Below are positions 6,122 to 25,295 of a stretch of DNA of 27,211 nucleotides, in pieces (the first letter of the stretch is position 1; every line of letters begins with the position of its first letter). Origin of the DNA: an uncultured Actinomycetes bacterium (GTDB lineage: Bacteria; Actinomycetota; Thermoleophilia; Solirubrobacterales; Solirubrobacteraceae); assembly GCA_937888775.1 (NCBI GenBank), contig CALAQT010000363.1, positions 1 through 27,211 of the forward strand, read 5' to 3'. The translations under genes were made by a program, and so were the position numbers. The notes beneath the pieces are model-generated. The model saw only the letters and a list, made by a program, of their open reading frames with translations, made no database searches and was not told the DNA's origin.

Positions 6122-6207
6122 AGCGCACCGTGAACGACAAGTCGACCTATTTGGCCAGCTTCCGGACCACGCGAGTGTGGGTCGTCGCTGGCGAGAGGAG
6201 CGCATAG

Positions 6208-6252
6208 ATGACTGGCGTCCCGGATCTCGACACACCGGAAGAAGTCACGTGA
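6208..6252 (+). CDS. Possible 14-codon leader ORF
   Basis: ATG 6208 follows a good GAGAGGAG ribosome binding site (6191-6198) and encodes MTGVPDLDTPEEVT. Its TGA lies within GTGA, overlapping the dehydratase GTG start by 4 bp. The dehydratase has no ribosome binding site of its own, so translation by coupling from this short ORF is plausible. The peptide may have no function itself. Confidence 0.35.
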   Translation: MTGVPDLDTPEEVT

Positions 6253-7388: not shown

Positions 7389-7408
7389 GCCAAGCGGGAC
7401 GCGAAGCG

Positions 7409-8288
7409 ATGCGACTGGTTAGCTACGAGCGCAATGGCGTCTGGCGGCCCGGAATTCTGCTGGAGGCCAAAGTCGTTGACGTGGATGCTGCCGCCCGTCT
7501 CGCCGGACTTGATGGCGATGTCCCGGCAGGAGCCGATTGGAGCTCTCGGGCAGTGATCCAGTCCAGTCCTCAAACGCGAGAGGCGTTGCTCACCGCAGCG
7601 ACGGAACTCATTGCCGGCGCCGAGGCCGTCACGGAGATCCGGTTGGGACCGCCGATTCCGGACCCAGACAAGATTCTCTGTATGGGGCTCAACTATCGCG
7701 ATCACGCCGACGAAGCACAGCTGCCACTACCGATCGTGCCGCTGTTCTTCGCAAAGTTCCGCAACTCGCTAATCGGGCCTGAGGACGAGATTGTTCTCCC
7801 GCCCACGAGCGAACAGATCGACTATGAGGCGGAGCTGGCAGTCGTCATCGGCAAGCGTTGTCGCCGCGTTGCCCCAGAGGATGCCCTCGCTTATTAATAC
7901 GTAGTCGGCGCGATGGCGTTCAACGACGTGAGCGCGCGCGATCTCCAGATGCAGGTCAGCCAGTGGACGGTCGGAAAGGCGATCGACACCTTTGCTCCAT
8001 GTGGGCCAGCGCTCGTCACGATGATGGTGTTCACCGTGCCTGAAGCGGATCGCATTCCTCAGTCAGACTATGACGCTTGAGCCGGGCGACATCATCGCCA
8101 CCGGGACACCAGCCGGCGTCGGGATGGCTCACGATCCACGGGTCTGGCTGCGCGACGGTGACGTGGTCGAGATCGAGATCGACGAGATCGGGACGCTGCG
8201 CAACCGCGTACGCGCTGCCGACGTGAGAAGTGCTTCCAAGGTACGCGATTCGTTCACTGGAGCCAGCTCTGTCCCCGGCGGGGCGTAA
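7409..8288 (+). pseudogene. Fumarylacetoacetate-hydrolase-family gene (diketo-deoxy acid hydrolase-like), broken
   Basis: From ATG 7409 the frame gives a typical FAH-family start (MRLVSYERNGVWRPG), then ILCMGLNYRDHADEA and DYEAELAVVIGKRCRR, the metal-binding core. At 7894-7899 an extra TATTAA-like pair of codons puts in a TAA stop. The same frame then resumes with GAMAFNDVSARDLQMQ and VGKAIDTFAPCGPALVT. Next, about 30 codons are missing and a one-base shift near 8055 moves the reading into another frame, which ends with [20 protein letters not shown] and a normal C-terminus. Intact relatives (about 280 residues) split 2,4-diketo-3-deoxy-L-fuconate or similar compounds. Two or three independent lesions make readthrough or sequencing error unlikely. 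Confidence 0.85.
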
Positions 8289-11333: not shown

Positions 11334-12311
11334 CTACAGCACTTCGCCAACGTCGTCGAACGCGGTGGCGGCGCGGATGTAGCGGCGCAGTACGGGGAGG
11401 TCCTTGTGCCGTGAGACGTTGGCGATCTTGCGCTCCTCGACGCCGGCGGCCGCTGCCGCGGTTACATACCCGGCGCGCAGCGAGTGCCCGGAGAGCTGCT
11501 CGGGCCCGAGCCCGGCGGCCTTCGAGCGGCGCTTAACGATCAACGCGACCGACTGGCCGGTGAGCCGCTCGGCGCCGACGATGTCGCCGCGGCGCATCCG
11601 GCGGAATACCGGGCCGCGGTGGATCCCCGCCGCCTCGAGCCACGCCCGCAACGCCCGGACCGCGCACCTGTCGTTTCCCGCGCGCGCATACGGAACGGCC
11701 ACTGTCGCTCCTGCCCGCTCCTGATCGGTCTTCGATGAGGCGATCCTCACCAGCAGCCCGCGGGCGGTGGTGAACTCGAGGTGCTCGACGTCGAGGGTGA
11801 CGAGCTCCGAGCGTCTGAGCGCGGCGGCGAACCCGAGCAGCAGCAGCGCCCGGTCGCGCAGCCCGGCGAGGGTGGAGGTGTCGAGCTCGGCGAGGACCTG
11901 TTCGAGCGGGGAGAGGTCGAGCGGCGCGGCCCTGCGCTCGGGTGCGGTGCCGTGCCGGCGGCGGATCCCCGATAGGACCTGCGCGACCGCGCCCGAGTCG
12001 CATGGGTTCGGATGGTCCTGCGCGCGGTGCGCGGCGGCGATCGCCGCCGCCCGACGCCCGATCGTGACGGGCCGGAACCCGCGGTCGGCTTCGGCGGCCA
12101 GGAACGCCGCGACCGCGGCCGGCGCGGCCGGAATCGCGGGGACGCCGCGCTCCGAGCACCAGTCGGCGAACACCCGCCAGTCGCTCTCGTAGGCGCGGCG
12201 GGTCGCCGGCGCCAGCGCGCTCTGCGCGTAGCGCTCGGCGCTGCGCAGCTCGCGCTCGAGCTCCGCCGGGGCGCCAGCTGCTCGGGGGATCGGAAGCGGT
12301 CTCTCAGACAC
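11334..12311 (-). CDS. Tyrosine recombinase / integrase
   Basis: A 325-residue recombinase with an N-terminal SAM-like DNA-binding domain (about 20-110, LAPATRRAYESDWRVFADWC) and a complete C-terminal catalytic domain: Arg166 (ALRRSEL), Lys194 (SSKTDQERAG), His276-x-x-Arg279 (SGHSLRAGYV), His302 (SRHKD) and nucleophile Tyr311 (LRRYIR). Nothing essential is missing, so it is probably active. GTG 12311 is 5 bp from the inner heptamer of the right repeat, leaving no room for a normal promoter and ribosome binding site inside the unit. Transcription probably comes from across the repeat. The gene fills the 1.09-kb segment between two inverted repeats. It is not obviously related to the recombinase at 24183-25295. 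Confidence 0.93.
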   Translation of the reverse strand: MSERPLPIPRAAGAPAELERELRSAERYAQSALAPATRRAYESDWRVFADWCSERGVPAIPAAPAAVAAFLAAEADRGFRPVTIGRRAAAIAAAHRAQDHPNPCDSGAVAQVLSGIRRRHGTAPERRAAPLDLSPLEQVLAELDTSTLAGLRDRALLLLGFAAALRRSELVTLDVEHLEFTTARGLLVRIASSKTDQERAGATVAVPYARAGNDRCAVRALRAWLEAAGIHRGPVFRRMRRGDIVGAERLTGQSVALIVKRRSKAAGLGPEQLSGHSLRAGYVTAAAAAGVEERKIANVSRHKDLPVLRRYIRAATAFDDVGEVL

Positions 12312-12315
12312 GTTT

Positions 12316-12352
12316 AGTAGCGATAATCAGGCTTCTCGCTACCTAATTCGCG
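12316..12352 (-). repeat. Right recombination-site-like repeat, inverted
   Basis: The reverse complement of 12331-12352 matches all 22 bp of 11266-11287. After an 8-bp spacer, AGTAGCG (12316-12322) is the complement of the left CGCTACT. The spacer differs between the two copies. Confidence 0.8.
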
Positions 12353-12502
12353 GTCGTCGTGAAGACGCCTTCCAGGCGGGAGTCATACTGCCGCCAATCG
12401 GGGCGCCGGCGGTCGGATCGATCGCCCAGAGAACACCGCCTTTGCACCGACGTCGACGCCGCGACGCGTCGTCCGGGCTTGTGCTTGGTGAGGTGTCCGG
12501 CG

Positions 12503-15199
12503 CTATGCGATCTCGTAGGTCTTGAGGACCTCGTCGCCGTGATGGTTGATGATCTTCACGGCGATGGTTCCGGTTGCTGGCGGATCAAAGGGGCGGCTGC
12601 GGGTTCTGTAGAGCGATGCCCATGCGTCCTCGTTGATCTCGGCCTTGAGCGCTTGGCGTAGTCGTTTGTAAGGGTCGTTGGCGCCGGTGAAGTAGGCATC
12701 ACGTACGAAGAAGCTTTCGCCGTTGTAGTTGTTGTCGATGAACCAGCAGGCGATCGCGTCTGTGTCATCGGAGCGGATCTCTCCGGTCGTCGGGTCGTAG
12801 ACGTCGACGCCGCGTACTTCCACCTCGATCATGCCGTCGCTGGTGCGATGGATCTGCAAGTCGGGCTCGCCGAAGACCGTGAACAGGTTCCCGGCGCCGG
12901 TCTGCTTCAGTAGGTCTTCGCCCATCGAGAGATCAGGGTTCATGCGTACGAGCAGCACAGGCAGCCTTCCGAACTTGCGCTCCTCCGCCGTGACTGCCCA
13001 TCCTCCGCCGGTGTCGGGCCGGAACTCGTGCGCGGTTTCCGGGCTCGCGGCGTCGAAGGCGAACCCGCAGACGAGTAGGAGGTCGAAGCCGACTCCCTTG
13101 ACGGCCTCCTTGGCCGCCTCACGAACGTGATCGGCGCCGACCGTGCCGTACTCGGGTCCGAGCGACACGGCAACCTGGCGGATCTCGCCGTCGATGTCTG
13201 TGAACGTGCCCCGGGCGGCGATCCACTCACCGGCGAACGGCTCCAATGAGTCGAACTGCAATCGCTGCTCCCGGACCTGATTCTGAACTCCGGCCTTGAG
13301 TAGGTTGGCCAGCACCGTTGCTTCGAAGGATTCTGTTGAGGTCGGCACGTCCTCAGCATCTGGCGCGGTTTCCTCCGAGATCACGCGGTGCGGCGAGAGG
13401 CTCTCGACGGTGAACGGTCCGCAGACACGGACGATTCGGCGGTCTTTGTACGGCTGGTCGAAGAGCAGCTCCTGGTCGCTGTGGCGAGCAATCGCCTGCT
13501 CAAGCTCCGTCCGCGGCATGCCTTCGCGGATGTCGGGGTTTTGGGCGATATCGCGCAGCATGATGTGCGGGACCCGCCTGTAGACGAAACCCTTGCGGAC
13601 GTCGTTGGCGAACACCGTCTGTGCTAAGGGGCGGCGTGTGATCTCCTCTTCCTTACGAGCTCCGGCGGGTGAGTCTGCGAGTAGGTAGTACGGCAGCCTG
13701 AGAGCGGCCAGTCGTGTGCGCGTCAGCGCCACGGCGACGCGGGAGGTGTCGATCGCGATCCAGCGCCGTCCCCACTCCTCCGCGACGACGGCAGTCGTCC
13801 CGCTGCCGTTGGTGGGGTCGAGCACCAGGTCGCCAGGGTCGGTTGTCATGAGGAGGCAGCGTTGAACGACCTTTGTATTGGTCTGGACTACGTACACCTT
13901 CGGATCACCGAATCCCGAGATCGCGGTGTCCTCCCAAACATTTGTGACCGGGAATGCCTTGAAGTCGTCGAGATAACGGATGTACGTCAGCGTGTTGCCA
14001 ACGACGCCGACTCTGCCGGCGATCAGAAGTCGCTGCATGCCTTCCTCATTGGTCTTCCACCGGCTGTTACCCGGCGTGAACTGGCGATCGCCGATCTCGA
14101 CGGGATACCAGGAGGACGCCCCTTCGCCTTTCTCTCGGCCAGCACTCTGGCTGGTGAGATTGTCGTGTCGAAAAACGCGAGCGTCCGTTGGGATCACGGC
14201 GGGGTTGGCTCGCTCCTCTGGACTAAGCGGCCGTCGGCGCGCGTCCGCCTCCTCAAGGTGCCCGTACTGACCACCTCCGAGACCGCCGACCTCCTTCTCG
14301 CGGTACAGGGCTCGGTACTTCGTCTCGCTCCGGTCCTTGGCGTACCACAGGATGTAGTCGACGACGCCCGGCAGGTAGTCACCCGTCGCGCCGCTCGTCT
14401 TCCGGAACGTGATGAGGCTGATGAAGTTTTCGGCGCCAAACACCTCATCAAGCAAGCTGCGTACCAGATGTACGTTTTCGTCACCGATCTGAACGAAGAC
14501 CGAGCCCGAGCCGGTCAGGAGCTCCCGCGACACGGTCAGGCGGTCCCGGAGGTACGCGAGGTAGCTTTGGATGCCGTCCTTCCACGTGTCGCGAAAGGCG
14601 CGGATCTGCTCGGGCTGGCGGCTTACGTGGTCAAGCTTGCCGTCGCGTACTTCGCGATTCTGGGTGGACACCTGCCAGTTCGACCCGAACCCGATCCCGT
14701 ATGGCGGATCGATGAAGATCGTCTGCACCTTGCCGCGGAGGCCCTCCTTCTCGGCCAGCGACGTCATGACTAGCAGTGAGTCGCCGAGGATCAGGCGGTT
14801 GGACCAGTTCTGCTGGTGCCTGTAGAAGTCAACGAGGTCCTCGAACTCGATGCCGTTGAAGTCGTCGAAGAGGCTGAGCTCTGGCTCGGGTTCGCCCGCA
14901 GCGGCGGTCTGGCGGAGGTTCTCGATGAGGACGCGTGGTTGGATCTTCTCCTGAATGTAGATAGGGACCGTCGGCACCGCGAGGTCCTGTGCGTCCTGCT
15001 CGTCCTTCCCGCGCCAAACGAGCTGCGGGTCGAGCGACGGATCGCGTGGGTAGAGCGTCGGCCTCGGGCGCTTCTCGTCCTCGTCGACGAACCCCCGCAG
15101 CTCGTTCGTCGGGATGTTCGCGCGCTTGTCGTTATGACGAATCACCTCAACGGGGATAGGTCCCGACGCCTTGTTTTTCGCCCCCCTTGGCGGCGTCAT
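12503..15199 (-). CDS. mod: Type III-like DNA methyltransferase (Mod), N6-adenine
   Basis: An 898-residue protein. The catalytic DPPY is at 164-167 (FIDPPYGIGFGSNW), ahead of the SAM-binding DPTNGSGTT at 461-469. This is the beta-class order used by type III Mod subunits, which methylate adenine N6. A target-recognition region lies between them (about 300-400). A C-terminal extension of roughly 350 residues makes it longer than classical Mod (about 550-650). ATG 15199 was chosen because ATGA joins it to the Res stop with a 4-bp overlap and it gives the natural start MTPPRGAKNK. An upstream in-frame start would run deep into res. Mod should supply sequence recognition and self-protection for the pair. 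The recognition sequence cannot be predicted. Confidence 0.92.
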   Translation of the reverse strand: MTPPRGAKNKASGPIPVEVIRHNDKRANIPTNELRGFVDEDEKRPRPTLYPRDPSLDPQLVWRGKDEQDAQDLAVPTVPIYIQEKIQPRVLIENLRQTAAAGEPEPELSLFDDFNGIEFEDLVDFYRHQQNWSNRLILGDSLLVMTSLAEKEGLRGKVQTIFIDPPYGIGFGSNWQVSTQNREVRDGKLDHVSRQPEQIRAFRDTWKDGIQSYLAYLRDRLTVSRELLTGSGSVFVQIGDENVHLVRSLLDEVFGAENFISLITFRKTSGATGDYLPGVVDYILWYAKDRSETKYRALYREKEVGGLGGGQYGHLEEADARRRPLSPEERANPAVIPTDARVFRHDNLTSQSAGREKGEGASSWYPVEIGDRQFTPGNSRWKTNEEGMQRLLIAGRVGVVGNTLTYIRYLDDFKAFPVTNVWEDTAISGFGDPKVYVVQTNTKVVQRCLLMTTDPGDLVLDPTNGSGTTAVVAEEWGRRWIAIDTSRVAVALTRTRLAALRLPYYLLADSPAGARKEEEITRRPLAQTVFANDVRKGFVYRRVPHIMLRDIAQNPDIREGMPRTELEQAIARHSDQELLFDQPYKDRRIVRVCGPFTVESLSPHRVISEETAPDAEDVPTSTESFEATVLANLLKAGVQNQVREQRLQFDSLEPFAGEWIAARGTFTDIDGEIRQVAVSLGPEYGTVGADHVREAAKEAVKGVGFDLLLVCGFAFDAASPETAHEFRPDTGGGWAVTAEERKFGRLPVLLVRMNPDLSMGEDLLKQTGAGNLFTVFGEPDLQIHRTSDGMIEVEVRGVDVYDPTTGEIRSDDTDAIACWFIDNNYNGESFFVRDAYFTGANDPYKRLRQALKAEINEDAWASLYRTRSRPFDPPATGTIAVKIINHHGDEVLKTYEIA

Positions 15200-18195
15200 G
15201 CCGGGACCGGCTCCTTGATCGCCTGATGGATGAACTCTCGGATCGCCGACTGCACGGCCCACGGATCGCCGATCTCGATGAACTGCCAGCGCCCGAACTC
15301 GCCGAGGTTGTTGACGGCCGGCACCCACAGGGTGCGAGCCGCCTCGCACTTCGCCTTCTTGGTATCGAGCACCTGTCCGGAGACCTCGACAATGAGGTTG
15401 AGGAGGTCCTTCTCGCCGTGGCCGTCGTCAATGCGCACGATGAAGTCGGGGAGGAACTCGTGAGCTTGCCCTTCGCGGGTGTAGGGGATCGCGAATCCCA
15501 AGTGGTCGTTCTTGACGTACGCGCGCACCTCATCCATCTCCTCGAGCCGCTCGGCCACCGTGTGCTCCCATCCTGAGTCGGCGACGACATCGGAGACGTG
15601 ACACCGCTCAGGGGCTGTGGGCATGACGCTCTTCGACGTGTCGAAGTCGACCGCGCGCGTTGAACCGACGCGATCGTAGGGGGCGAGCCTTGCTATCAGC
15701 CGCCGTCGTCCCTCGTCGGCGCGCACGATCGCGGTCTGAATGTGTTCGCTGGCGCGTTCGGCGAGCTGGGCGAGCAGGAGCATCTGAACGAAGGTGTTGT
15801 CCTTGAGCGAGACGCAGGTGTCGAGCCAGTCGCGTGAGATACGGAGCAGCTGTGGGAACAGCCAGGGCTGGTCGGGGTAGTAGCGCTCGAGGACGCGCTT
15901 TGCGATCGCAAAGGCGACCTCTTGCGGGCGACGCTGACGCAAATCGTCGAGCGTATGTGTGGTTCTCTGGCCCACGATCGGATGCACGTCAGTCTTGGAG
16001 GGCACGTCCTTCGTCGAGAGCGTCAAGCGGCTGGCGTCGGTGAACTTCGCGGCAAGGCGCTGTCCTTCGAGCTCGTGTCGATATCCGATCACGCGCGGGA
16101 ACGTGATCTCTAGATCGGCGCGGTCCTCGAGAGCGCGGACGCGGTGCACTCTTGCCGGTGGGGCTGGCCCGTCGCTGCCGCTGGCGGGGATGAAGCTGAA
16201 GGGCACGCCGTAGACCTCGGCGTACTCGGGCACGAACTTTCCGTCGTCGCCGACAGCGTAGGAGCGTCGGCGAAGCCCGCGGCCGACAACCTGCTCGCAG
16301 AGGAGCTGCGTTCCAAACGCACGGACGCCGAGGATGTGCGTCACCGTGTTGGCGTCCCAGCCTTCGGTGAGCATCGAGACAGAGACCACGCAGCGGACAT
16401 GCTCTCCGAGCCGGCCGGGCTTACCGACCGTGTTCATGATCTCGCGCATGAGGTCCTCGTCCGTGAGCTCCTCGGCGTCACGGCCCGGGAAGCGTAGGCG
16501 GAATTCTTCTTTGAAGTGCTCGATTTCCGCGGCGGCAGCCTTCTTGAATTCGACAGACATTCCCTCGCCTGAGTCGAGCTGCGCGGAGTCCACGACGATG
16601 CTGTTCGGCCGGGCGAGCCGGTTGCCGTCCTCGTCGACGTTGGAGAAGAGGGGCAGCGCACCCTTGACCGCGACCGTCTCGCCATCATTCCCGACTTGGC
16701 GGTCCCAGCCGGAGATCCAGTCGTAAACAAGCTTCGAGACGCTCGTGTTGTTGCAGACGACGATGAAGACCGGCGGGGTGCTGCCGGCCTGGTGCTCGGT
16801 CTCCATCGCCTGCCACTGTTCGAAGGAATGCTCGTAGTTCGCATACAGCGTGCGAAGCGCGGCCTCGAGAGCCGCTGGGAGTCGGCGCTGGTCGGTGAGG
16901 TTCTGTTGGCGAACGCCTCGCTTCGGGAGGTCTTTACGGATGTGCGCCCAGAGGTTGCGGAATATCGGGGTCTCGGCACCCGTGTTGTCCGAGACAGGGA
17001 CGCGTGGCACCTTGACGAGCCCAGCTTCGATCGCGTCGATGAGCGCGAAGTCCGAGACCACCCAGGGGAACAGGCGGGCCTCCGGATAGCCTGAGCCTGC
17101 GAGGAAGAACGGCGTGGCAGACAGGTCGTAGACCGTCTTGATGCCGTACTTGGCGTTGATCGCCTCTAGACCACCGATCCAGACGCGCGCCTCCTCCTCG
17201 CGCTCCTTGACCTCTTGCTTGCTCTCGGCGGTACGTGCGTCTGGGAGGAAGTCTTCGGCCTCGCCGCCGACGCGATGGCGGTAACAGTGATGGGCCTCGT
17301 CGTTGATGACGATGATCCCGTTCTTGCTTCCGAGTGTCCGACAGACTCGGCGAGCCATCTGGTCCGGGGTCTCCTGAAGCGGATTTCTGGCTCCCGCGCG
17401 GCCGGCGAGCACCTGTTTTGTGACCTTCGGTGCTCCTGAACGGTCGCGCAGCAGGAAACCGTGAAAGTTGGTCACGACGATGCGCGCCTGACCAAGCAGC
17501 TCGTGTCCGCCGGGCGGGATCAGGTCGCGCTCGCGGTAGTAGTTGTCCGGGCTTTCGGGCAACAGGACGCGTAGGCGGTCTCGGATCGTGATTCCAGGCG
17601 AGATCAGCAGGAAGGCATCGGAGAAGCGAGCGTCCTGCTTGTTGGCAGTCTTATTGAGCGCCTGCCAGGCGATCAGCATCGCCATGACCACCGTTTTGCC
17701 GGTCCCGGTCGCCATCTTGACCGCGACGCGGAACAGGCCGGGATTGGCGTCGTCAGCCGCCTGGCGCAGGAAGTTCGTGATCCACGCATCCTGGTGGGCA
17801 GCCTTGTTGATGATCTCGCCGATGTAGATCGCTGTCTCGGCCGCCTCGATCTGGGCGAAGAACAGCTTGCGATCCCTCGTCGTATCGGTCCAGTATTCGA
17901 GCAGTCGTCGCGTTGTCGGGGTCACGCCCGGCCATCCGCCACGGCGCCAGACGCCGACGCGTTCGCGGATCTGGTTGATCGTCCGGTTCTCCTCGATGCG
18001 GTCCGAGGTCCACTCGGTCTCGAACTGCAGCTGATCGCCACCCCGCTTGCTCTTGGGGATCGGAATGAAGTACGACGAGACCCTTCGGCCTTGGACGATC
18101 TCATTCGTGATCCCGTCACGCTCGAATTTCCAGTGACTCTTCGGCTCGTCGAACGGCGAGTTCAGGATGGGGTTGTCGATGACGGCGTCAGCCAT
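15196..18195 (-). CDS. res: Type III-like restriction enzyme (Res), DEAD/DEAH helicase-nuclease
   Basis: A 999-residue SF2 ATPase. Walker A ATGTGKT is at 162-168, DEAH at 299-302, SATPFF marks motif III, and CEQVVGRGLRRR is motif VI. The C-terminal domain has the layout of a PD-(D/E)XK nuclease: FLPDF (Pro916-Asp917), then Glu937-Val-Ser939 (LIVEVSG). The usual catalytic Lys position is therefore Ser. The protein should translocate and cut DNA only in complex with Mod, encoded next with a 4-bp overlap. It is first in the minus-strand operon and faces away from the BrnT-like operon across 200 bp containing a palindrome. ATG 18195 (MADAVIDNPILNSPF) begins the conserved part; no clear ribosome binding site is seen. 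Confidence 0.93.
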   Translation of the reverse strand: MADAVIDNPILNSPFDEPKSHWKFERDGITNEIVQGRRVSSYFIPIPKSKRGGDQLQFETEWTSDRIEENRTINQIRERVGVWRRGGWPGVTPTTRRLLEYWTDTTRDRKLFFAQIEAAETAIYIGEIINKAAHQDAWITNFLRQAADDANPGLFRVAVKMATGTGKTVVMAMLIAWQALNKTANKQDARFSDAFLLISPGITIRDRLRVLLPESPDNYYRERDLIPPGGHELLGQARIVVTNFHGFLLRDRSGAPKVTKQVLAGRAGARNPLQETPDQMARRVCRTLGSKNGIIVINDEAHHCYRHRVGGEAEDFLPDARTAESKQEVKEREEEARVWIGGLEAINAKYGIKTVYDLSATPFFLAGSGYPEARLFPWVVSDFALIDAIEAGLVKVPRVPVSDNTGAETPIFRNLWAHIRKDLPKRGVRQQNLTDQRRLPAALEAALRTLYANYEHSFEQWQAMETEHQAGSTPPVFIVVCNNTSVSKLVYDWISGWDRQVGNDGETVAVKGALPLFSNVDEDGNRLARPNSIVVDSAQLDSGEGMSVEFKKAAAAEIEHFKEEFRLRFPGRDAEELTDEDLMREIMNTVGKPGRLGEHVRCVVSVSMLTEGWDANTVTHILGVRAFGTQLLCEQVVGRGLRRRSYAVGDDGKFVPEYAEVYGVPFSFIPASGSDGPAPPARVHRVRALEDRADLEITFPRVIGYRHELEGQRLAAKFTDASRLTLSTKDVPSKTDVHPIVGQRTTHTLDDLRQRRPQEVAFAIAKRVLERYYPDQPWLFPQLLRISRDWLDTCVSLKDNTFVQMLLLAQLAERASEHIQTAIVRADEGRRRLIARLAPYDRVGSTRAVDFDTSKSVMPTAPERCHVSDVVADSGWEHTVAERLEEMDEVRAYVKNDHLGFAIPYTREGQAHEFLPDFIVRIDDGHGEKDLLNLIVEVSGQVLDTKKAKCEAARTLWVPAVNNLGEFGRWQFIEIGDPWAVQSAIREFIHQAIKEPVPA

Positions 18196-18245
18196 GATCT
18201 ATCGGTAGCGGTTCACGCGCCAGAGCCGCGCGGCTGGTGCCAAGG

Positions 18246-18308
18246 CTAACGCGGCATCCGCAGGGCTTGATCGAATGGCTCGCTGGACTTCTCGATGAAT
18301 GTCTCCAT
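18246..18308 (-). CDS. Possible 20-residue leader peptide upstream of res
   Basis: ATG 18308 has a good Shine-Dalgarno (GGAGAG, 9 nt upstream) that lies inside the palindrome at 18312-18330. The frame encodes METFIEKSSEPF and eight more residues before TAG, 50 bp ahead of res. It could be a leader ORF or the truncated start of a lost gene. No homology is recognised. Confidence 0.3.
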   Translation of the reverse strand: METFIEKSSEPFDQALRMPR

Positions 18309-18311
18309 TTT

Positions 18312-18330
18312 GTATATCTCTCCGGTATAC
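18312..18330. promoter_or_regulatory. Palindromic operator candidate in the divergent res / brnT spacer
   Basis: GTATATC-N5-GGTATAC is an inverted repeat with a single mismatch, in an AT-rich patch that stands out from the GC-rich surroundings. TATACT (18326-18331) overlapping its right arm could be the -10 box of the BrnT operon. It is the size expected of a site bound by a dimeric ribbon-helix-helix protein, which the second gene of that operon encodes. Confidence 0.5.
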
Positions 18331-18399
18331 TCTCTTGCGTGAAGGTGTTGAGCGGTTCTCGACCGAACTACAGACGTTTGCGGTGAACTCGCTGATCTC

Positions 18400-18690
18400 G
18401 TGGGATCGCGTCGACGCGGAGGGCTGCGCCCGCAGTTCGAGTGGGATGAGCAGAACGAGGAGAAGCTGCTGCGCAACCACAACGTCTCCGCGGTCGAGGC
18501 CGAGCAGTGCTTCGCCAATCCGCACAGCAAGCGCCGCCACGGCGACGATCTGCTGATGCTCGGAGTCACCGATGGTGGACGGCTGCTGTTTCTCGTTTAT
18601 GAGCAGAAAGCCGACGGAGTGGTGCGCGTCTACAGCGCCCGCGAAATGACCGACAAGGAACGGCGGACCTACCGCCAGCAGGTACGATGA
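18400..18690 (+). CDS. brnT-like: BrnT-like toxin
   Basis: A 96-residue protein with the BrnT pattern: FEWDEQNEEKLLRNHNVSAV (about 13-32, the F-E-W-D...N...KHxV start of the family), an AEQCFANP segment, a central DDLLMLGVT...LLFLVYEQ beta sheet, and VRVYSAREMTDKERRTY at the C-terminus, which holds the basic residues of the RelE-like ribonuclease fold. BrnT toxins inhibit translation by RNA cleavage and are neutralised by BrnA, a CopG-type antitoxin. The next gene overlaps by 4 bp (ATGA) and carries CopG-like repeats, so the pairing fits. GTG 18400 leaves a 12-residue leader before the conserved start. The family usually begins directly at the F-E-W-D motif, so the true start could be different. 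Confidence 0.8.
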   Translation: MGSRRRGGLRPQFEWDEQNEEKLLRNHNVSAVEAEQCFANPHSKRRHGDDLLMLGVTDGGRLLFLVYEQKADGVVRVYSAREMTDKERRTYRQQVR

Positions 18691-19646
18691 GCCCCGATCG
18701 CCGAGACGAGCTGCTCGAGCGGGATTGGTCGGCCGCGTGGGAGGCGCTGCCGGAGGCGCCTGCGCTAGTCGCGCGACCCAAGACGGCGCAGATCACGCTG
18801 CGGCTTCCGAGCAGCATGCTCACTCGTATTAAGCGGGTTGCTGCTGAGCGGTCGCTGGCCTACCACCCGCTGGTTCGCTCCTGGCTTCTGGACGCTCTGC
18901 GAGAGGGCGTGGTCCCCGCCGGCGAGCTGCCCACCGAGCCGCAGGTGGAGCAGCTGAACGTCAAGCTCGACCAGGACCTGCTCGATGCGGTGAAGACGCG
19001 CGCACACGAGCTCGGGCGTCCCTACCATCGTCTGGTTCGCGAATGGGTCGACGCCGCGCTGGTCGCCGAGGAGAAGCGGCTCGGGCTGGCGGAGGCGTTG
19101 GCCGCCCGTCCTGGTATTAAGGACCTCATGGTGCTCTTGCTGCACGCTGCCGACGCGCGCAGCCACGACGCCGTGCGTGGGATCACCCGCCTGCAGAAGC
19201 TGCTGTTCGTGCTCGAGGAGACGGTCGGTGCGCAGGGTGCCGGGTTCTACGCCTACAACTACGGGCCTTTCAACGAGGGCGTCAATGACGCGGTGCAGGC
19301 GTTGCGGCTTGCGGGCTTCCTCAAGGGAACGGAGGAGGCGGCTCCTGCGGGGCCGCCATCGTTTGCCGAGATGATGGCTACCGCCGTCGACCGTGCTGGC
19401 CCGCGCAGCGACTCGCAGGTTGAGGAGTTTGAGCTCAGCGACCAGGGGCACAAGGCGGCGGAGCGTCTTCGACAGTCGAGCCGCGCCTATGAGGAGCTGT
19501 TTGTGCGGATTCAGGACCTTCGCGCCCAGTGGGACACGCCTGATCTCGTCGAACGCGTGTACGAGACCTGGCCCGAGTACGCCAAGGAGTCGCTGATCAA
19601 AGACGAGGTGGCGGCTCGTCGAGCCCGGCGGCGGTCACGGAGATGA
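18687..19646 (+). CDS. Double ribbon-helix-helix (BrnA/CopG-like) protein fused to a winged-helix-like domain
   Basis: A 319-residue protein. Two similar ribbon-helix-helix segments lie at about 34-73 (QITLRLPSSMLTRIKRVA... YHPLVRSWL) and 88-129 (QLNVKLDQDLLDAVKTRA... YHRLVREWV), sharing the Y-H-x-L-V-R-x-W ending. One such unit is the DNA-binding fold of CopG/BrnA antitoxins, which normally dimerise; here one chain may supply both halves. Residues about 140-319 form a second domain with RLQKLLF (168-174), YGPF (192-195), ELSDQGH and WPEYAKES (295-302). This recalls winged-helix families with an R-L-Q-K-L-L/Y-G-P-F pattern, including Panacea-like antitoxin domains, though that link is only a resemblance. 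It overlaps the toxin gene and the next gene, each by 4 bp. Likely roles: toxin neutralisation and autoregulation at the upstream palindrome. Confidence 0.75.
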   Translation: MSPDRRDELLERDWSAAWEALPEAPALVARPKTAQITLRLPSSMLTRIKRVAAERSLAYHPLVRSWLLDALREGVVPAGELPTEPQVEQLNVKLDQDLLDAVKTRAHELGRPYHRLVREWVDAALVAEEKRLGLAEALAARPGIKDLMVLLLHAADARSHDAVRGITRLQKLLFVLEETVGAQGAGFYAYNYGPFNEGVNDAVQALRLAGFLKGTEEAAPAGPPSFAEMMATAVDRAGPRSDSQVEEFELSDQGHKAAERLRQSSRAYEELFVRIQDLRAQWDTPDLVERVYETWPEYAKESLIKDEVAARRARRRSRR

Positions 19647-20902
19647 TGAGCAGAGCGCCGCTGCATCACGTCGTGCGGGTCCGGACCTCCGATGACCTTG
19701 AGTTTCTGCGGGCGGGAATCATGGACGAGGTCCTGATCAACGCCAACCAGCTGGAAAACAGTCCGGAGAGCACTGCGGCGGCGCTGCGGCGGACCGCGCT
19801 GCCGTTCAGCGTCGATCCCATGCTCTACCGGTTTCAGAAGCCTGGGTGGTGGCGCAACCACAAGGGAGAGACCAAGCGCAACTACGCCCGCCTGGGCAAG
19901 CTCTATGTCGAGGGCACCAGTATCGAGCTTCCTGCTGGACCGCTCGTCGATGTTGTCCCCACCGATCAGGAATGGCGTGTGCTCGCGTGCAACGCCATCA
20001 GCTATCAGCGCTCGCGGCTTGACATGCCAACGCAGCTCGACCTCCTCTCCAACGAGCTGCCCCACGAGCTTCATCCTGTTCGCCTCAACGCGCCTGCCCT
20101 GGTGTCTGACTCAGAGGCCGAGGACCGCGCCAACCGTCTGCTCGCCGAGGCCAGCGTCGACGCCGCGCAGGAGCCGGTCGCGGTATCGGTGATCGTCCCG
20201 CTGCAGCGGCTGGTCGACCCGCGTCAACTCGATCGGTTGCTGGGGTCCCTGCTGAGAGATGGAGTCAGCTCCTACTTCGTCTGGACGCCCGGGGTGACCG
20301 AGGAGCGCCTGCTCGCCGACCACACCGTGTTCGCTGGCCTGCTCAAGCTGATCTCAGGCCTCGTCGAGCGCGGGATCCCAGTCGGTCACCTGCACGGCGG
20401 CTACGTAATCGCCGCGCTGCACGATGCCGGGATCGCCGCGCTGGTCCATCATTTCGGCTGGGTCGATCGCGGCGAACCTGCCCAGCAGAGCGGCGGCGGT
20501 CCACGCTCCTGCCAAACCTACGTCCCGTCCGTCCGGCACTGCCTTCGCTTCGACCGGGCCTACCAGCTCGGCCGATCCCTCGATGCCGCCGACTACGCCG
20601 AGCGCTACTGCGGCTGCGCGTTCTGCGCGGGAGCCTTCGCTAACGGCCAACACCCGCTGGATCTCCTGCTCGAGCAGCGGACCGTCACCGTCGGCGCCAG
20701 CGAGCGGCACACGCCCACCGCCCGCGCCGTAGCGCTCAACACCTGGCACCACCTTCTCTCCCGCCGCAAAGAGATCGAGGCCTTCAACGCGTACACCGCT
20801 GTCGAGGTGATCGACCGGGACATCCGCCGCGCTGCCGCGCTCACCGGTGACCGCGATACTGGCCGGTTCAGCCGACTCGCGGACGAGCTGCGCGTCGGCT
20901 GA
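19643..20902 (+). CDS. Orphan protein with a tRNA-guanine-transglycosylase-like zinc motif
   Basis: A 419-residue protein of no family I can name with certainty. Near the C-terminus Cys323-Gly-Cys325-x2-Cys328 is followed by a His 28 residues later. TGT/DpdA-type base-exchange enzymes have CxCxxC-x25-H at nearly the same place in a barrel of similar length. Alternating strands and helices such as VAVSVIVPLQRLVD, SSYFVWTPGV and GIPVGHLHGGYVIAALHDAG fit a TIM-barrel-like fold. I cannot place the catalytic aspartates of TGT (MDSGG- and FDCVLPTR-like motifs), so activity is open. It could be a TGT-fold base exchanger acting on tRNA or DNA, or an unrelated zinc protein. The start overlaps the preceding stop (ATGATGA: either ATG 19643 or 19646). 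It is last in the three-gene operon. Confidence 0.7.
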   Translation: MMSRAPLHHVVRVRTSDDLEFLRAGIMDEVLINANQLENSPESTAAALRRTALPFSVDPMLYRFQKPGWWRNHKGETKRNYARLGKLYVEGTSIELPAGPLVDVVPTDQEWRVLACNAISYQRSRLDMPTQLDLLSNELPHELHPVRLNAPALVSDSEAEDRANRLLAEASVDAAQEPVAVSVIVPLQRLVDPRQLDRLLGSLLRDGVSSYFVWTPGVTEERLLADHTVFAGLLKLISGLVERGIPVGHLHGGYVIAALHDAGIAALVHHFGWVDRGEPAQQSGGGPRSCQTYVPSVRHCLRFDRAYQLGRSLDAADYAERYCGCAFCAGAFANGQHPLDLLLEQRTVTVGASERHTPTARAVALNTWHHLLSRRKEIEAFNAYTAVEVIDRDIRRAAALTGDRDTGRFSRLADELRVG

Positions 20903-20941
20903 CCTCCACCCGACCGGAAAGTCCAGCACGCCCGGCTGAGG

Positions 20942-20979
20942 CCGCTCGGGAGCGGAGCGCGGGGCACCGGAGCGCCCCG
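20942..20979 (+). terminator. Tandem hairpins after the three-gene operon
   Basis: CCGCTC-GG-GAGCGG (20942-20955) and CGGGGC-N8-GCCCCG (20960-20979) follow the stop codon by 40 bp. No U-tract is present, so a factor-dependent or actinobacterial I-shaped terminator is the most that can be claimed. Confidence 0.35.
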
Positions 20980-21043
20980 TGTCGCGGGGGTGCGGGTCGG
21001 CGCGAGCAGCTGGCGGACATGCTCGGCGCTGACATCCATCCCG

Positions 21044-21067
21044 TGTAGAACGTCGGTCGTATGACAG
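21044..21067 (+). repeat. 24-bp direct repeat, copy 1
   Basis: Matches copies at 22056 and 27096 (TGTAGAACGTCGG...ATGACAG) with one mismatch (T for A before ATGACAG). Similarity stops right after the 24 bp. Confidence 0.8.
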
Positions 21068-22055
21068 TGGGGCGATCCGTTTCGGCGGCGGCGCGGTTCG
21101 CGGGAGGGCTACGAAGCACGGCCCGATGATGGGCAGCGTCGTCGGCGGCGGCGCCGAATAGCAACAGCGTGAACAGAGTCGCGAGCCGTGCTCGCGCTGC
21201 GCGCGAGCTCGACGCCGGGCTACGCGCCCGCAGCTGCACCGCCGCCGGGGAGGGCGACGTGTCGTCCGAGGCCTCCCGGGGCGTCGAGGAGGCGCCAGGG
21301 CTGACTGCCGTCCTCGAGGTTCTCCGCGACGTGTCGCAGATCCCTCCTGGCGGCCCGTGAAAGGGTCGAGCGAGGGTTGCAGATCGCGTGAGCGTTCTGG
21401 CTACATCAGATAGGTGCCCGTTCGCCGCGACCAGGCTCCCCGTAAAGAAGCGCCTTCCGCCGTGATAACTGTGGTGTGAGTGCACCTTCTGCTCAGAGTC
21501 GGCGCGCGAGCCGGGCCGGACGCGTCGTAGACCGTCGTCGTCGACGACGCCCGTCGGGGCTGGCGTGCGCGCGGGCGCTGGTCTCAGAAGATGCGTGTGA
21601 GGGCGTACTACAAACGGGGCCCATACAAGGCGGTAAAGGATGTGGAGCCCTCTCGCACCCGACCGCCTAGATCCCTACCTCCCGGTGCACGGGCGACCGT
21701 CGAGCTGCTGCGCGCTTGCAGCCACGCTCAGGCTCACCATCGACCTCGGCCAAAGGTGCAACGGCTGCGCGGTTACCGCAGCCGTCTCGGCGCCGTTGTC
21801 TTGTTGGCGGTCATCTTCGTCCTCGCGCCGTCCGCCATCTGGCTCCTGGCCATGTTCGCGCCGTGCGTCACGCTTGCTCAGGCGGGGTGGCTCCCGCCGA
21901 GCTTCTTGCGCGGACCGTGGGCTCCGCCGGCGCGCTGTCCATGCCACGAGCATCGCGATCGAGGCGAGCAGCTCGCCCCTTGCCCGCCGCCGATCCGCTC
22001 ACTGACAAACGAGTGGGACGATCCACTGACATCAGCCGGGATTCCCACTGACATC

Positions 22056-22130
22056 TGTAGAACGTCGGTCGAATGACAGCGCCGGACGAGCACCGTCGGC
22101 GGCCAGCTCCTGAACTCGCTTTCCGCGCAA
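22056..22130 (+). repeat. 24-bp direct repeat, copy 2, with extended similarity to copy 3
   Basis: The first 24-25 bp are identical to 27096-27120 and similarity of roughly 85-90 percent continues for about 50 bp more. In that extension both copies can be read as MTA-x-DEHR-x-R-x-APELAFRA from the ATG within the repeat, and half the differences are synonymous, hinting that a gene start was duplicated. Confidence 0.75.
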
Positions 22131-22267
22131 ACCACGGGCCGCCGGCTCGAGCCGCGAGATCCCTGTCAGAGCACCGAAGCGGGTCCCGCCGGCATCGGTC
22201 GATCGCTGCTGGCCCGCTCGGCCGGCGGGTCTCCGACCGGCGTGGACGACGCGGTAGGTCGGGCAAT

Positions 22268-22273
22268 ACCCTG
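22268..22273 (+). promoter_or_regulatory. Leaderless-type -10 box before the Mrr-N gene
   Basis: TACCCT fits TANNNT and ends 7 nt before ATG 22281, which has no ribosome binding site. This spacing is typical of leaderless transcripts in actinobacteria. Confidence 0.4.
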
Positions 22274-22280
22274 TCCACTC

Positions 22281-22697
22281 ATGCCGATTCCGGACTACCA
22301 GACGCTCATGCTGCCCGTCCTGCGGCTTCTCGCCGATGGCGCCGAGCACACGGCCGGCTCCGCCATCGAGGCGCTGTCGGACGAGTTTCAGCTCACCTCG
22401 GCGGAGCGGGAGCAGCTGGTCGGCAGCCAGCGGATCGGCCTCATGGCGAGTCGTGTCCATTGGGCGATGACCTATCTCGCCCAGGCCGGCCTGGCCAACC
22501 CGAGCAGCCGAGGTCACCGCCCCTCGGGGCTCTCCTCGACGACGGACCAGTCAAGGCGGGTAATGGGGAACGGTTCGCCGCGCCGGCGGCGGTCAGCCCT
22601 TGGGGTTGTGTGTGGCCAGCGATTGCGCGGCCAAGGCTCGTCGCCAAAGAGAGAGCGGGCCTTGCGGCCCGCTCTCGGTGATTCTTGTCGGCCATGA
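22281..22697 (+). CDS. Mrr N-terminal (winged-helix) domain protein, nuclease domain missing
   Basis: Residues 1 to about 78 match the Mrr_N winged-helix domain that precedes the nuclease in Mrr-type type IV restriction enzymes: MPIPDYQTLMLPVLRLLADG, HTAGSAIEALSDEFQLT, SAEREQLV and a VHWAMTYLAQAGLA helix. The following RGHRPSGLSS... is low-complexity, and the Mrr catalytic domain (PD-QxK type) is absent. The frame also runs through the hairpin at 22651-22676, so the real gene probably ends earlier or is a truncated remnant. Full Mrr proteins have about 300 residues. Alone, the domain could still bind DNA, but restriction is not expected. The start is supported by the near-universal M-P-I-P-x-Y/F start and the upstream -10 box. 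Confidence 0.65.
   Translation: MPIPDYQTLMLPVLRLLADGAEHTAGSAIEALSDEFQLTSAEREQLVGSQRIGLMASRVHWAMTYLAQAGLANPSSRGHRPSGLSSTTDQSRRVMGNGSPRRRRSALGVVCGQRLRGQGSSPKRERALRPALGDSCRP
22651..22676. terminator. Strong hairpin terminator, probably for the minus-strand small gene
   Basis: GAGAGCGGGCC-TTGC-GGCCCGCTCTC is an 11-bp perfect stem. On the minus strand it is followed by TCTCTTT, and on the plus strand by only scattered T. It therefore best serves the minus-strand gene ending at 22716 and may work in both directions. Confidence 0.75.
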
Positions 22698-22715
22698 CAT
22701 TCCCGTGCGGTGGGT

Positions 22716-22931
22716 TCAGTCTCCGCCGTGAGGCTGGTTAGCGTTGTCTCCTGCCGCCTCTGGGCTCGGACGCTGTGTTGTGATCGAGTAGGCGAACCTT
22801 TTTGACCTAAACGCAATCTGAAATGGGGCTCCGTCCCTCCAAGCGCTCTTAGCTGCCAGGAAGAGGACCGCACAGCTCGTCAGATTTCGAAGAAGCACGC
22901 CGATCGCGATCAAGATCGCGATGGCGTCCAT
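22716..22931 (-). CDS. Small membrane protein, unknown function
   Basis: A 71-residue frame from ATG 22931. It starts with a hydrophobic segment (AIAILIAIGVLL, then LTSCAVLFLAA, about residues 3-27), followed by a basic stretch (KSAWRD...FRSKRFAY) and a polar tail. This layout fits a single- or double-pass membrane peptide with its C-terminus in the cytoplasm. The local sequence is less GC-rich than its surroundings, and the strong hairpin about 40 bp after the stop supports a real transcript on this strand. No homology is recognised. It lies in the stretch between the Mrr-N remnant and the HEPN gene, convergent with the former. Confidence 0.45.
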   Translation of the reverse strand: MDAIAILIAIGVLLRNLTSCAVLFLAAKSAWRDGAPFQIAFRSKRFAYSITTQRPSPEAAGDNANQPHGGD

Positions 22932-23223
22932 GTTCGTCTACCGGTCTGACCGTTTCGTCATAGGCCTGCCTTCTGAGCCGTTGTTCGGGAAGGGACGACT
23001 CCAAAGGATTGTCCCACCCGGCGTAACAAAAGGCAAAATCTCCGATAGCTCGGTCGAGGCCCGGCCGAGTAGCTTGGTTTCGCCCGGACGTTTCTCAGGC
23101 CGTCGGGCTATGTGCGCCACATGGCGCCTGGGATCGAGCCGGCGATGGGCGTCTCTTGGCTGGCGAGTAACGGGGTTCTCCCAACCAAGAGGCATCCGAG
23201 ACTCGGCCTACGATCGCGAGTGC
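22932..23223. other. Spacer upstream of the HEPN gene
   Basis: No gene is supported on either strand. A plus frame is open through here into the HEPN gene, but its residues show no family likeness and its composition changes sharply at 23224, so it is treated as non-coding. TACGAT (23209-23214) 9 nt before ATG 23224 may be a near-leaderless -10 box. Confidence 0.45.
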
Positions 23224-24186
23224 ATGCCCGTCGACCGACCACCCCGCGCGCCAGCCGCACGCATCAGCTCGCAAATCACGCAGACGATCCTCAACTGGAT
23301 CGAGCAGAACGTCCAGTACGGAATCACCCACCTCGCGAATCTCTACCTTGAAACAGAAGTCCATCCCGGACACCGCGAGGCCCTATCCGAACTCGAAGGG
23401 CGCTACGGCCTGGAAGCCGGCGAGCTCGTCACACCCTACGTGTCTCGCCTCTTGGTGATCGGCAAAGGGCGCGCGCGGACCAGTCGGATCGCCAGGATGG
23501 TGCCCGTGGAGTCATTGGGCGTCGACCAGCTCGTTCGCCAATTGCAACCCAGCGACGAGGCGCACATCTTCTTGGAGTGCCTCCCCGAGCCCGAGCTCGT
23601 AACCGCGCTTGAGCTCGGTGGGCGGAGCCTCGCTGATCAGCGTGGCGAGCATCCTGACTTGTTCGGTTATCTGGAGAGGGTGTTCCGTGCCCGCGGTCTG
23701 CCGTACACCGCGTCCGCAACAGACGGCATCCAGTGGGTCGGGGAACGAGCGGTTCGCAAGCACGCGATCGAGCCCGCACTCGCAGCGCTCGCTGATCCGC
23801 GCCTCGCCAACGCGAGTGAGGAGTTCGACAAGGCACGCGGGCACCTGCGACGCGGCGAGCTCAAGGACGCGGGCAAGTGGGCCGGCGACGCGGTCGAGAC
23901 GACGATGGCGATCCTGCTCGGCGCGCACGGCCACCCCCAGCCGCAGACCAAGCACGGCACCGATCTCGTGCAAGCCAAACATCTCTTCGATCAGCTCCAG
24001 AGCACCGCCGTCGGCCTTCTCACCGAGGATCGCGACAAGGAGCTGATCTACGCCCCGATGAAGGTGCGCAACGCCTGCGGCCACGGGGCCGGCGCAAACC
24101 CGAGACCACCCGATCGGGCCTATGTGGAGGCGGGCGTTGCGGCCGCTGCTGTAGCGATCGCCTACCTGGCCTCCAAGCTGCCGTGA
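23224..24186 (+). CDS. HEPN-domain protein, abortive-infection-like
   Basis: A 320-residue protein. The last 125 residues or so (about 194-318) form an alpha-helical domain with FDKARGHLRRGELKDAGKWA, a basic/polar loop (PQPQTKHGTD), and VRNACGHGAG containing Arg282-Asn-x3-His287, the R-x4-H (RNxxxH) signature of HEPN ribonucleases in abortive-infection, toxin and CRISPR effectors. The N-terminal part (ISSQITQTILNWIEQNVQYG...) is helical and unassigned, perhaps a sensor. ATG 23224 was chosen because likely coding sequence begins there and a TACGAT box is 9 nt upstream. Its stop overlaps the start of the tyrosine recombinase (GTGA), so the two are co-transcribed. Likely a phage-defence RNase carried as cargo. 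Confidence 0.65.
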   Translation: MPVDRPPRAPAARISSQITQTILNWIEQNVQYGITHLANLYLETEVHPGHREALSELEGRYGLEAGELVTPYVSRLLVIGKGRARTSRIARMVPVESLGVDQLVRQLQPSDEAHIFLECLPEPELVTALELGGRSLADQRGEHPDLFGYLERVFRARGLPYTASATDGIQWVGERAVRKHAIEPALAALADPRLANASEEFDKARGHLRRGELKDAGKWAGDAVETTMAILLGAHGHPQPQTKHGTDLVQAKHLFDQLQSTAVGLLTEDRDKELIYAPMKVRNACGHGAGANPRPPDRAYVEAGVAAAAVAIAYLASKLP

Positions 24187-25295
24187 GTCTCCCTGCGATC
24201 GCGACCCCTGCGACCCTCGGCGCCGACGACCGCGACGTCGGCCTCGGAGCGGCGGCGGAGCGGTTCGCGCGCACGACGCTGAGAAAGAGCGCGCAGACGC
24301 AGCGGACCTATGCCGGCGCCTACCGTCGTTTCGCTGCCTGGCTGAGCGTCTACACCGGCCTTCCTGATCCGCCGCTGAGTGCGTTCGGCGCCGATGCGCT
24401 CGCGGCCTACCTCGACGAGCTCGAGGACCAGGGTCGCGCACCGGGCACGATCAAGAAGGAGCGCGCTGCGCTCAACCGCCTGGCCAAGTATCTCCACACG
24501 CTCGGAGCGATCGACGCCACGGCGATCCTGCTCGTCGAAGGCACCGCGCTGGATGACCGCGAGCGCACCCGCGACGCGCTCGACCGCGACACCTGGGAGC
24601 GGGTCAAGGCGATCGCCCGCGCGCGCCTGAACGCCTCGCCCCGCAACCGCGCGACGCGCATCGCGGCGCTGCGGGATCTCTGCCTGATCCTGCTGCTCGG
24701 CGACCAAGGTCTGCGCTCCGAGGAGGCCCGCTCCGCCCGCTTCGACGCGATCTTCATCCGCGGTTCGGCGGGATCCCGGCCCTGGCTGCGCGTGACCGGC
24801 AAGGGGTCGAAGCTGCGCGAGCTACCACTCGCCACCGAAACCGCCGAAGCGCTCGCCGACTGGGAAGCCAACCGGCCCGCCGAGCTCGACGAAGACCCGG
24901 TTCTGCTCCCGCGCCTGGGTCGCCCCCGCCACGAGCAGGCCAACCGCTGGGATCGCTCGCAACTGACGTTCCCGCGCGCGGGTGGTCAGCTCTCCGGGCA
25001 AGGGCTCTCAGACATCGTCAAGCCGCTGATGCTCGCTGCCGGCGTCGCCCCAGAGCTGGCGCACCCGCACGTGCTCAGGCACACCTACGGCTCGCTGTAC
25101 ATGGCCCACCCCCGCGCCGAGCTCTCTCGCCTGCAGCGCCTCATGGGCCACGCCTCTCCCGAGACGACCACGGTCTATGTCCACCACGACCGCCAGGCGC
25201 TCGAGGACGACCTCGCCGACCGCGAACGCGAACCCTCAGCGCTCGCTGCGGCCGCGCTGCGGCGGGCGCAGCGCCGCGACCGCGCGGGCGCGTAG
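24183..25295 (+). CDS. Tyrosine recombinase / XerC-like integrase
   Basis: A 370-residue recombinase. An N-terminal SAM-like core-binding domain (about 25-120, TQRTYAGAYRRFAAWL, APGTIKKERAALNRLAKYL) precedes a complete catalytic domain: Arg178 (DQGLRSEEA), Lys207 (VTGKGSKLRELPL), His296-x-x-Arg299 (HVLRHTYGSLY), His323 (MGHAS) and nucleophile Tyr332 (TTVYVHH). GTG 24183 is used because it overlaps the HEPN stop by 4 bp and precedes the first helix sensibly; the longer open frame upstream is out-of-frame HEPN sequence. It is the only recombinase between direct-repeat copies 2 and 3, so it is the obvious candidate for moving that 5-kb segment. Confidence 0.93.
   Translation: MSLPAIATPATLGADDRDVGLGAAAERFARTTLRKSAQTQRTYAGAYRRFAAWLSVYTGLPDPPLSAFGADALAAYLDELEDQGRAPGTIKKERAALNRLAKYLHTLGAIDATAILLVEGTALDDRERTRDALDRDTWERVKAIARARLNASPRNRATRIAALRDLCLILLLGDQGLRSEEARSARFDAIFIRGSAGSRPWLRVTGKGSKLRELPLATETAEALADWEANRPAELDEDPVLLPRLGRPRHEQANRWDRSQLTFPRAGGQLSGQGLSDIVKPLMLAAGVAPELAHPHVLRHTYGSLYMAHPRAELSRLQRLMGHASPETTTVYVHHDRQALEDDLADREREPSALAAAALRRAQRRDRAGA

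Follow-up and report, generated by a model that had tools for sequence, protein, structure and literature searches.

A three-gene brnT operon with a two-headed antitoxin candidate and a predicted TGT-fold protein in an uncultured Solirubrobacteraceae bacterium

Introduction

To our knowledge, toxins that alter bases are few among toxin-antitoxin (TA) systems, with DarT as the clear case. HipBST, another TA system, is built around a split kinase toxin. The brnTA system is described in the available sections of PMC11980606 as a two-gene operon or as a fusion of both genes; these sections class the toxin BrnT alongside BECR-fold RNases of the colicin E5/D type, and describe its ribosome dependence in vivo as unclear. 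In DarTG, the C-terminal domain of the antitoxin DarG inhibits DarT through mimicry of single-stranded DNA (PMC11481870, available part). Here we describe an operon that resembles both systems in part. It comprises brnT, a long antitoxin candidate, and a gene whose product is predicted to have the fold of tRNA-guanine transglycosylase (TGT). The operon lies in a 27,211-nucleotide stretch of DNA, hereafter the window, from an uncultured Actinomycetes bacterium of the Solirubrobacteraceae (NCBI GenBank assembly GCA_937888775.1, contig CALAQT010000363.1, positions 1 to 27,211, forward strand).

Results

The three genes form a conserved operon, and their order is kept elsewhere. The genes and the two parts of the middle protein are:

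18400..18690, + strand: brnT (gene 1), 96 amino acids (aa), GTG start; BrnT-family RNase toxin by Pfam BrnT_toxin
18687..19646, + strand: middle gene (gene 2), 319 aa; two-headed antitoxin candidate
18783..19082, + strand: residues 33-132 of the middle protein; tandem ribbon-helix-helix (RHH), predicted to form an RHH dimer within one chain
19107..19631, + strand: residues 141-315 of the middle protein; C-terminal DarG-like domain, putatively toxin-neutralising
19643..20902, + strand: third gene (gene 3), 419 aa; predicted TGT-fold protein, candidate second toxin

An earlier reading of this DNA from its letters alone (the sequence-only reading) had described three genes joined by two ATGA overlaps. 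These are present as stated, with genes 1 and 2 and genes 2 and 3 each sharing a 4-base ATGA. A scan of 18150-21300 for sigma-70 promoters found none.

That reading had proposed a genome-wide search for the gene order, and the same order indeed recurs at all four related genome loci found (L001-L004), each from a metagenome-assembled genome. Because these loci were located through gene 3, they show that gene 3 accompanies genes 1 and 2, not the reverse. At all four, brnT and gene 2 overlap by 4-8 bases; the junction of genes 2 and 3 is a 4-base overlap in L001 and L002, a gap of 3 bases in L003, and a gap of 1 base in L004. The reading had also named two outcomes that would speak against it, a third protein unrelated by structure whose gene mostly occurs without the first two, and a gene order absent from other genomes. 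We encountered neither, as the predicted structure of the third protein is TGT-like and the order recurs. Across the 10 pairs of the five loci, protein 2 identities (44-82%) and protein 3 identities (46-83%) are closely correlated (r 0.99, with pairs that are not independent).

The lists of relatives obtained for the three proteins point in the same direction. Longest contigs of the same size occur in at least 31 of 118 rows of the gene 2 and gene 3 lists (shifted control: mean 1.2, maximum 5), and in at least 22 of 50 when contigs are 5 kb or longer (control: mean 0.1, maximum 2). Contig sizes shared between the BrnT list and either of the other two number at least 26 of 119 (control: mean 2.3, maximum 8), or at least 12 of 40 at 5 kb or longer (control: mean 0.2, maximum 2), and at least three longest-contig sizes are common to all three lists. 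As the lists give the longest contig per cluster, the frequency of stand-alone genes is not readable from these shared rows.

The three-gene unit looks rare and patchy. A search of 298 genomes from a single order found protein 3 in three of them and full-length protein 2 in the same three, all already known; neither was found in the other 295, six of which contained matches to parts of protein 2. Two further sets, of 396 and 301 genomes, gave protein 3 once each, in the seed genome. Only part of the first-pass candidates was scored in these large searches, so these absences are soft. One of the four host genomes, G004, appears to belong to another phylum than G001-G003, and the names given to relatives include Solirubrobacteraceae, Acidimicrobiales, Limnocylindrales and Dormibacteraceae.

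The first gene encodes a predicted BrnT-type toxin, as the sequence-only reading had it: its product matches Pfam BrnT_toxin (PF04365) at 2e-11 and 44.5 bits, above the gathering cut-off of 34.5. A sequence search of the PDB gave 7vd7, annotated "toxin", at 0.0028, and a PHROGs search matched a ribonuclease-toxin family. In an alignment of 124 sequences (the window, L001-L004 and 119 relatives), His27, Phe38 and Glu87 are constant in all 124. By eye, these match residues important for RNase activity in a BrnT relative; the accessible text of PMC10714953 describes a Lys-His...Phe...Glu set as required for that activity, the lysine counting for it in BrnT too.

The middle protein begins as an RHH antitoxin would. 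Encoded directly after brnT and joined to it by the ATGA overlap, it matches Pfam CopG_antitoxin over two stretches (1.2e-15; 58.5 bits against a cut-off of 28), while the distant copy in L004 stays under that cut-off at 22.2 bits. Its score against the NCBIfam BrnA equivalog NF047399, which 30 of 40 members of its family match at E <= 0.01, is 29.3 bits and thus under the curated cut-off of 60; for this reason we class it as BrnA-like rather than as BrnA. Protein 2 has 332 relatives. The double RHH followed by a winged helix that had been read from the letters also appears in the predicted structure, where two RHH units precede a helical/winged domain. That reading had put the protein at twice or more the usual BrnA length; at 319 aa it is 3.4 times as long as the antitoxin of a canonical brnT-copG pair (94 aa).

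The C-terminal half of this protein, judging by family profiles, hhalign and predicted fold, resembles the toxin-neutralising domain of DarG and is assigned as its homologue. The protein as a whole does not qualify as a DarG, since it matches the C-terminal part of the DarG model alone. This half went unnoticed in the sequence-only reading, and it points rather to the gene 3 protein as a second toxin.

We also observed stand-alone relatives of the DarG-like domain in two genomes, in the same three-gene arrangement (L045 460-2031, - strand; L046 1432-3023, + strand). After each come a likely membrane protein (183-218 aa) and a protein that by eye resembles a PD-(D/E)XK nuclease and gave no Pfam match over cut-off. 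This arrangement is perhaps another conflict module.

The third protein is predicted to adopt a TGT-like TIM-barrel fold with a zinc subdomain. It belongs with the TGT superfamily by this predicted fold only, and it is in this sense that the earlier description of the third protein as TGT-like stands. At the sequence level, none of 40 family members matches the Pfam TGT family PF01702 at E <= 1, and hhalign against 31 genome TGTs and the E. coli TGT gave a probability of 0.3, over the CxCxxC stretch only. We therefore dropped a sequence-level tie to TGT; global and shifted alignments were meaningless and were not used. The family has 281 relatives in public genomes and metagenomes at E <= 0.001, and the Pfam copy used has no family model for it. 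PADLOC gave no family at E <= 1 for protein 3, with a distant tie to DpdA still possible, as the library's Dpd models were unchecked. PHROGs gave no useful match (0.08), and no relative was found in the plasmids, phages and viral contigs searched. PDB searches with a single sequence and with a profile found nothing convincing for protein 3 or for the middle protein. In a viral fold library, the weak matches to protein 3 include phage/virus queuine tRNA-ribosyltransferases at ranks 8, 11 and 24.

The catalytic pair of the E. coli TGT is Asp89 and Asp264. In an alignment of 44 sequences of the gene 3 family, the following sites stand out:

20609..20626, + strand: CxCxxC, likely zinc site; Cys323, Cys325 and Cys328 in 44, 43 and 44 of 44
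20747..20749, + strand: His369, likely fourth zinc ligand, in 44 of 44; within NTWH, placed by eye against TIHN at 331 of the E. coli TGT
19814..19816, + strand: Asp58, likely counterpart of E. coli TGT Asp89; invariant (44 of 44), placed by strand order, by eye

The family thus carries the CxCxxC...H pattern of the TGT zinc site, as a putative zinc site. The sequence-only reading had given this pattern as CxCxxC-x27-H. The cysteine motif is real; the histidine at that spacing, H356, lies at a variable position (leucine is most frequent there, in 13 of 44), and the conserved histidine is H369. Invariant positions are concentrated at the active-site ends of the barrel, where they make up 25 of 72; the figure for the rest of the protein is 35 of 347, and for the opposite barrel ends 8 of 71. 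This pattern favours an enzyme that is under selection.

Upstream of the operon lies one further conserved element:

18311..18330, + strand: TGTATA-N9-TATAC palindrome, likely (putative) operator; starts 89 bases upstream of brnT

The window holds a single perfect copy in its 27 kb, besides the copy's own reverse reading with one mismatch, and 100 shuffles held none. In L001-L004, TGTATA-N9-TAT begins 95-101 bases upstream of brnT, with the full TATAC at three of the four loci. The same palindrome also precedes a canonical two-gene brnT-copG pair (L047 1113-1704), where it starts 27 bases ahead of brnT. We read it as the putative operator of the RHH half, and its conservation is suggestive of autoregulation. 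A hairpin reading was set aside, as the palindrome shows no excess folding (z -0.2). A plain brnTA pair is the probable ancestor of the unit, with a second RHH, the DarG-like domain and gene 3 as later additions.

In the window, the unit has the following neighbours:

15196..18195, - strand: type III-like restriction endonuclease, BPTD_3080 family (NCBIfam 1184 bits, cut-off 800)
12503..15349, - strand: type III-like DNA methyltransferase (PADLOC MTase_III 919.5 bits)
11334..12311, - strand: flanking tyrosine recombinase (Pfam Phage_integrase 1.6e-14)
23877..25295, + strand: second flanking tyrosine recombinase (Pfam Phage_integrase 3.4e-18)

The restriction-modification neighbour noted from the letters is thus a type III-like endonuclease and methyltransferase pair that adjoins the unit. 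Together with the three genes, it lies in a possible island between the two recombinases (11334-25295). Two open reading frames (ORFs) of the window, 21591-22681 and 22921-24186, gave no Pfam match over cut-off, and a gene with a reverse transcriptase domain lies at 202-1065 (Pfam RVT_1 3.8e-25).

As a raw count, neighbours of a TA or defence type occur at four of the five loci. Near the unit of L001 are a tRNA-Leu gene and an AAA_21/DUF3696 ATPase; L002 has an AbiEi-type regulator (over cut-off) and an AbiEii-like gene (under cut-off); L004 has a RES-Xre pair together with an RNase H/helicase protein. In L001 the tRNA-Leu gene precedes the unit, an ORF matching DUF7662 lies between the two (6157-8015), and the place may be an integration site.

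In the four host genomes, whose completeness is not given, the canonical PF01702 TGT was found in one; in a sample of 61 genomes from G004's phylum, 50 have it. Some match to QueC occurs in all four hosts and passes the cut-off in three; it is full-length in two, and two hosts have short matches only. No shared 7-deazaguanine supply is therefore visible, and this candidate was rejected as inconsistent across the four genomes in the TGT and QueC searches. As a separate observation, G001 encodes a full-length QueC (L050), and no PF01702 TGT was found in that genome, whose completeness is likewise not given.

Discussion

Our favoured, still tentative reading is that the operon is a defence switch with two toxins and one antitoxin, in which one long antitoxin restrains both the BrnT RNase and a TGT-fold enzyme that acts on nucleic acid. 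The RHH half would bind the TGTATA-N9-TATAC palindrome and repress the operon and, together with the N-terminal segment of the middle protein, would block BrnT as BrnA does. The DarG-like half would sit in the nucleic-acid cleft of its TGT-fold partner, in the way that the C-terminal domain of DarG does in DarT. Loss of the antitoxin, through phage take-over or host shut-off, would release both toxins. Freed BrnT would cut RNA, the freed TGT-fold protein might excise or exchange a base in RNA or DNA, and the two activities together would stop growth and phage production. In favour of this reading we count the recurring trio, the parallel divergence of proteins 2 and 3, the shared contig sizes, the DarG-like domain, the predicted TGT fold with its invariant active-site ends, the constant BrnT residues, the shared palindrome, and the neighbours of a TA or defence type. 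The more specific proposal, that the antitoxin is bispecific, pairing a BrnA-type RHH with a DarG-type nucleic-acid mimic against two chemically different toxins, and that the second toxin is the first with a TGT fold, a base-excising or base-exchanging enzyme whose nucleophile is unlike that of TGT, is rather doubtful.

Several observations weigh against this two-toxin reading. The structure model of the middle protein is only moderate (pLDDT 77, pTM 0.49), and the protein scores 18.9 bits against the DarG model, whose curated cut-off is 250. A PADLOC model for type I specificity subunits matches the same C-terminal stretch in 30 of 40 members, with a best match (5.6e-7) better than that of DarG (6.2e-5). 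The DarG-like domain is a winged-helix relative and might have DNA or another molecule as its ligand; a mean net charge of +0.15 (range -9 to +6) lends no support to nucleic-acid mimicry. In gene 3, the nucleophile Asp264 of the E. coli TGT has no evident counterpart by strand order, which would put V268 and H269 at that place; base exchange may therefore not be its reaction. Two of 40 gene 3 members weakly match a different TIM-barrel family, Amidohydro_2 (0.0075 at best). The third gene of L002 (9992-11221) lacks, through an in-frame gap, the strand with His269-Gly277; it may be a decaying copy, or the gap may stem from faulty assembly. In BrnT, the lysine is not conserved, being arginine in 73 and asparagine in 43 of 124 sequences, so the specificity of the toxin may have shifted, or arginine may partly substitute. 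L003 has no defence neighbour, its unit lying beside a HAD hydrolase and a PAS-LuxR protein. Finally, all three proteins are highly conserved, which would be equally in keeping with a self-marking or housekeeping-like role.

A self-marking role is the main alternative, and we consider it unlikely. Gene 3 would exchange or modify a guanine, for example in a tRNA anticodon or in DNA, and BrnT would spare the marked RNA, so that RNA would be handled by the logic of restriction-modification. In that case the DarG-like half would be only a domain for binding nucleic acid or a partner. The predicted TGT fold and the high conservation of all three proteins fit this idea, as does the marking of DNA in defence systems by DpdA and, as proposed, by the TGT of a subset of BRC loci (PMC12839542, sections available). 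BrnT shares its BECR class with colicin E5/D-type RNases (PMC11980606), and colicin E5 cuts tRNAs capable of carrying queuosine; yet it does so irrespective of queuosine (both from the accessible part of PMC5372726). The uneven finds of canonical TGT and full-length QueC in the host genomes also speak against self-marking, which moreover leaves the DarG-like domain unexplained.

The apparent lack of the TGT nucleophile would suit a different role, in which gene 3 encodes a TGT-fold sensor, altered or without catalytic activity, that binds the anticodon loop or phage-modified nucleic acid and, once loaded, pulls the antitoxin off BrnT in a three-part relay. The antitoxin accompanies gene 3 at all five loci read and has a second, possibly protein-binding half. 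We nonetheless consider a sensor improbable, since the invariant polar residues at the active-site end of the barrel and the conserved zinc-site pattern suggest catalysis. It is more improbable still that gene 3 is a passenger of a BrnTA pair, unrelated in function and only co-transcribed within a mobile island. The window unit does sit between two tyrosine recombinases beside a restriction-modification system, but the order is kept at the four other loci in different surroundings, and proteins 2 and 3 diverge in step.

If the two-toxin reading is true, a TGT-fold partner under a DarG-like domain would be a new enzyme fold among base-altering TA toxins, and one antitoxin could combine two unrelated toxin-blocking parts. 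The three-gene unit also offers a lead on the substrate of BrnT.

The literature search, which left most subscription papers outside its scope, found no report of BrnT with a tRNA-guanine transglycosylase or of BrnT and an antitoxin with Panacea, nothing relevant for combinations of YwgA, DarG, antitoxin, RHH and tRNA-ribosyltransferase, and nothing on PDC-M19.

Set beside the described systems, the unit is like brnTA in that a BrnT toxin comes first and an RHH antitoxin second, in overlapping genes, with the same palindrome also preceding the canonical pair L047. It is unlike brnTA in that its 319-aa antitoxin has two RHH units and a DarG-like domain, and in that a third gene is added. It shares with DarTG an antitoxin with a DarG-type C-terminal domain; in contrast to DarTG, there is no DarT among the three genes, and the partner would be the TGT-fold protein. 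The match to the DarG model is confined to its C-terminal part, here fused to RHH units, whereas the N-terminal part of DarG itself is a macrodomain or NADAR. Unlike TGT, arcTGT and DpdA, gene 3 has no sequence-profile match, shows no evident Asp264 or Asp143, and sits in a TA operon; its zinc histidine follows the last cysteine by 40 residues, against 25 in TGT. HipBST and TAC are likewise three-gene TA operons, but in the parts of their descriptions available they lack a nucleic-acid base enzyme, and TAC depends on a chaperone. Like this unit, the BRC and Dpd systems have a TGT-related protein within a conflict locus; unlike it, they are multi-gene systems proposed or known to mark DNA (PMC12839542, available text), and the main text of the BRC paper names BrnT 0 times (PMC12839542). 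TGT homologues in defence are thus known (Dpd) or proposed (BRC; PMC12839542, in the text available), and a predicted TGT-fold gene 3 in a BrnT toxin-antitoxin operon would be a new combination.

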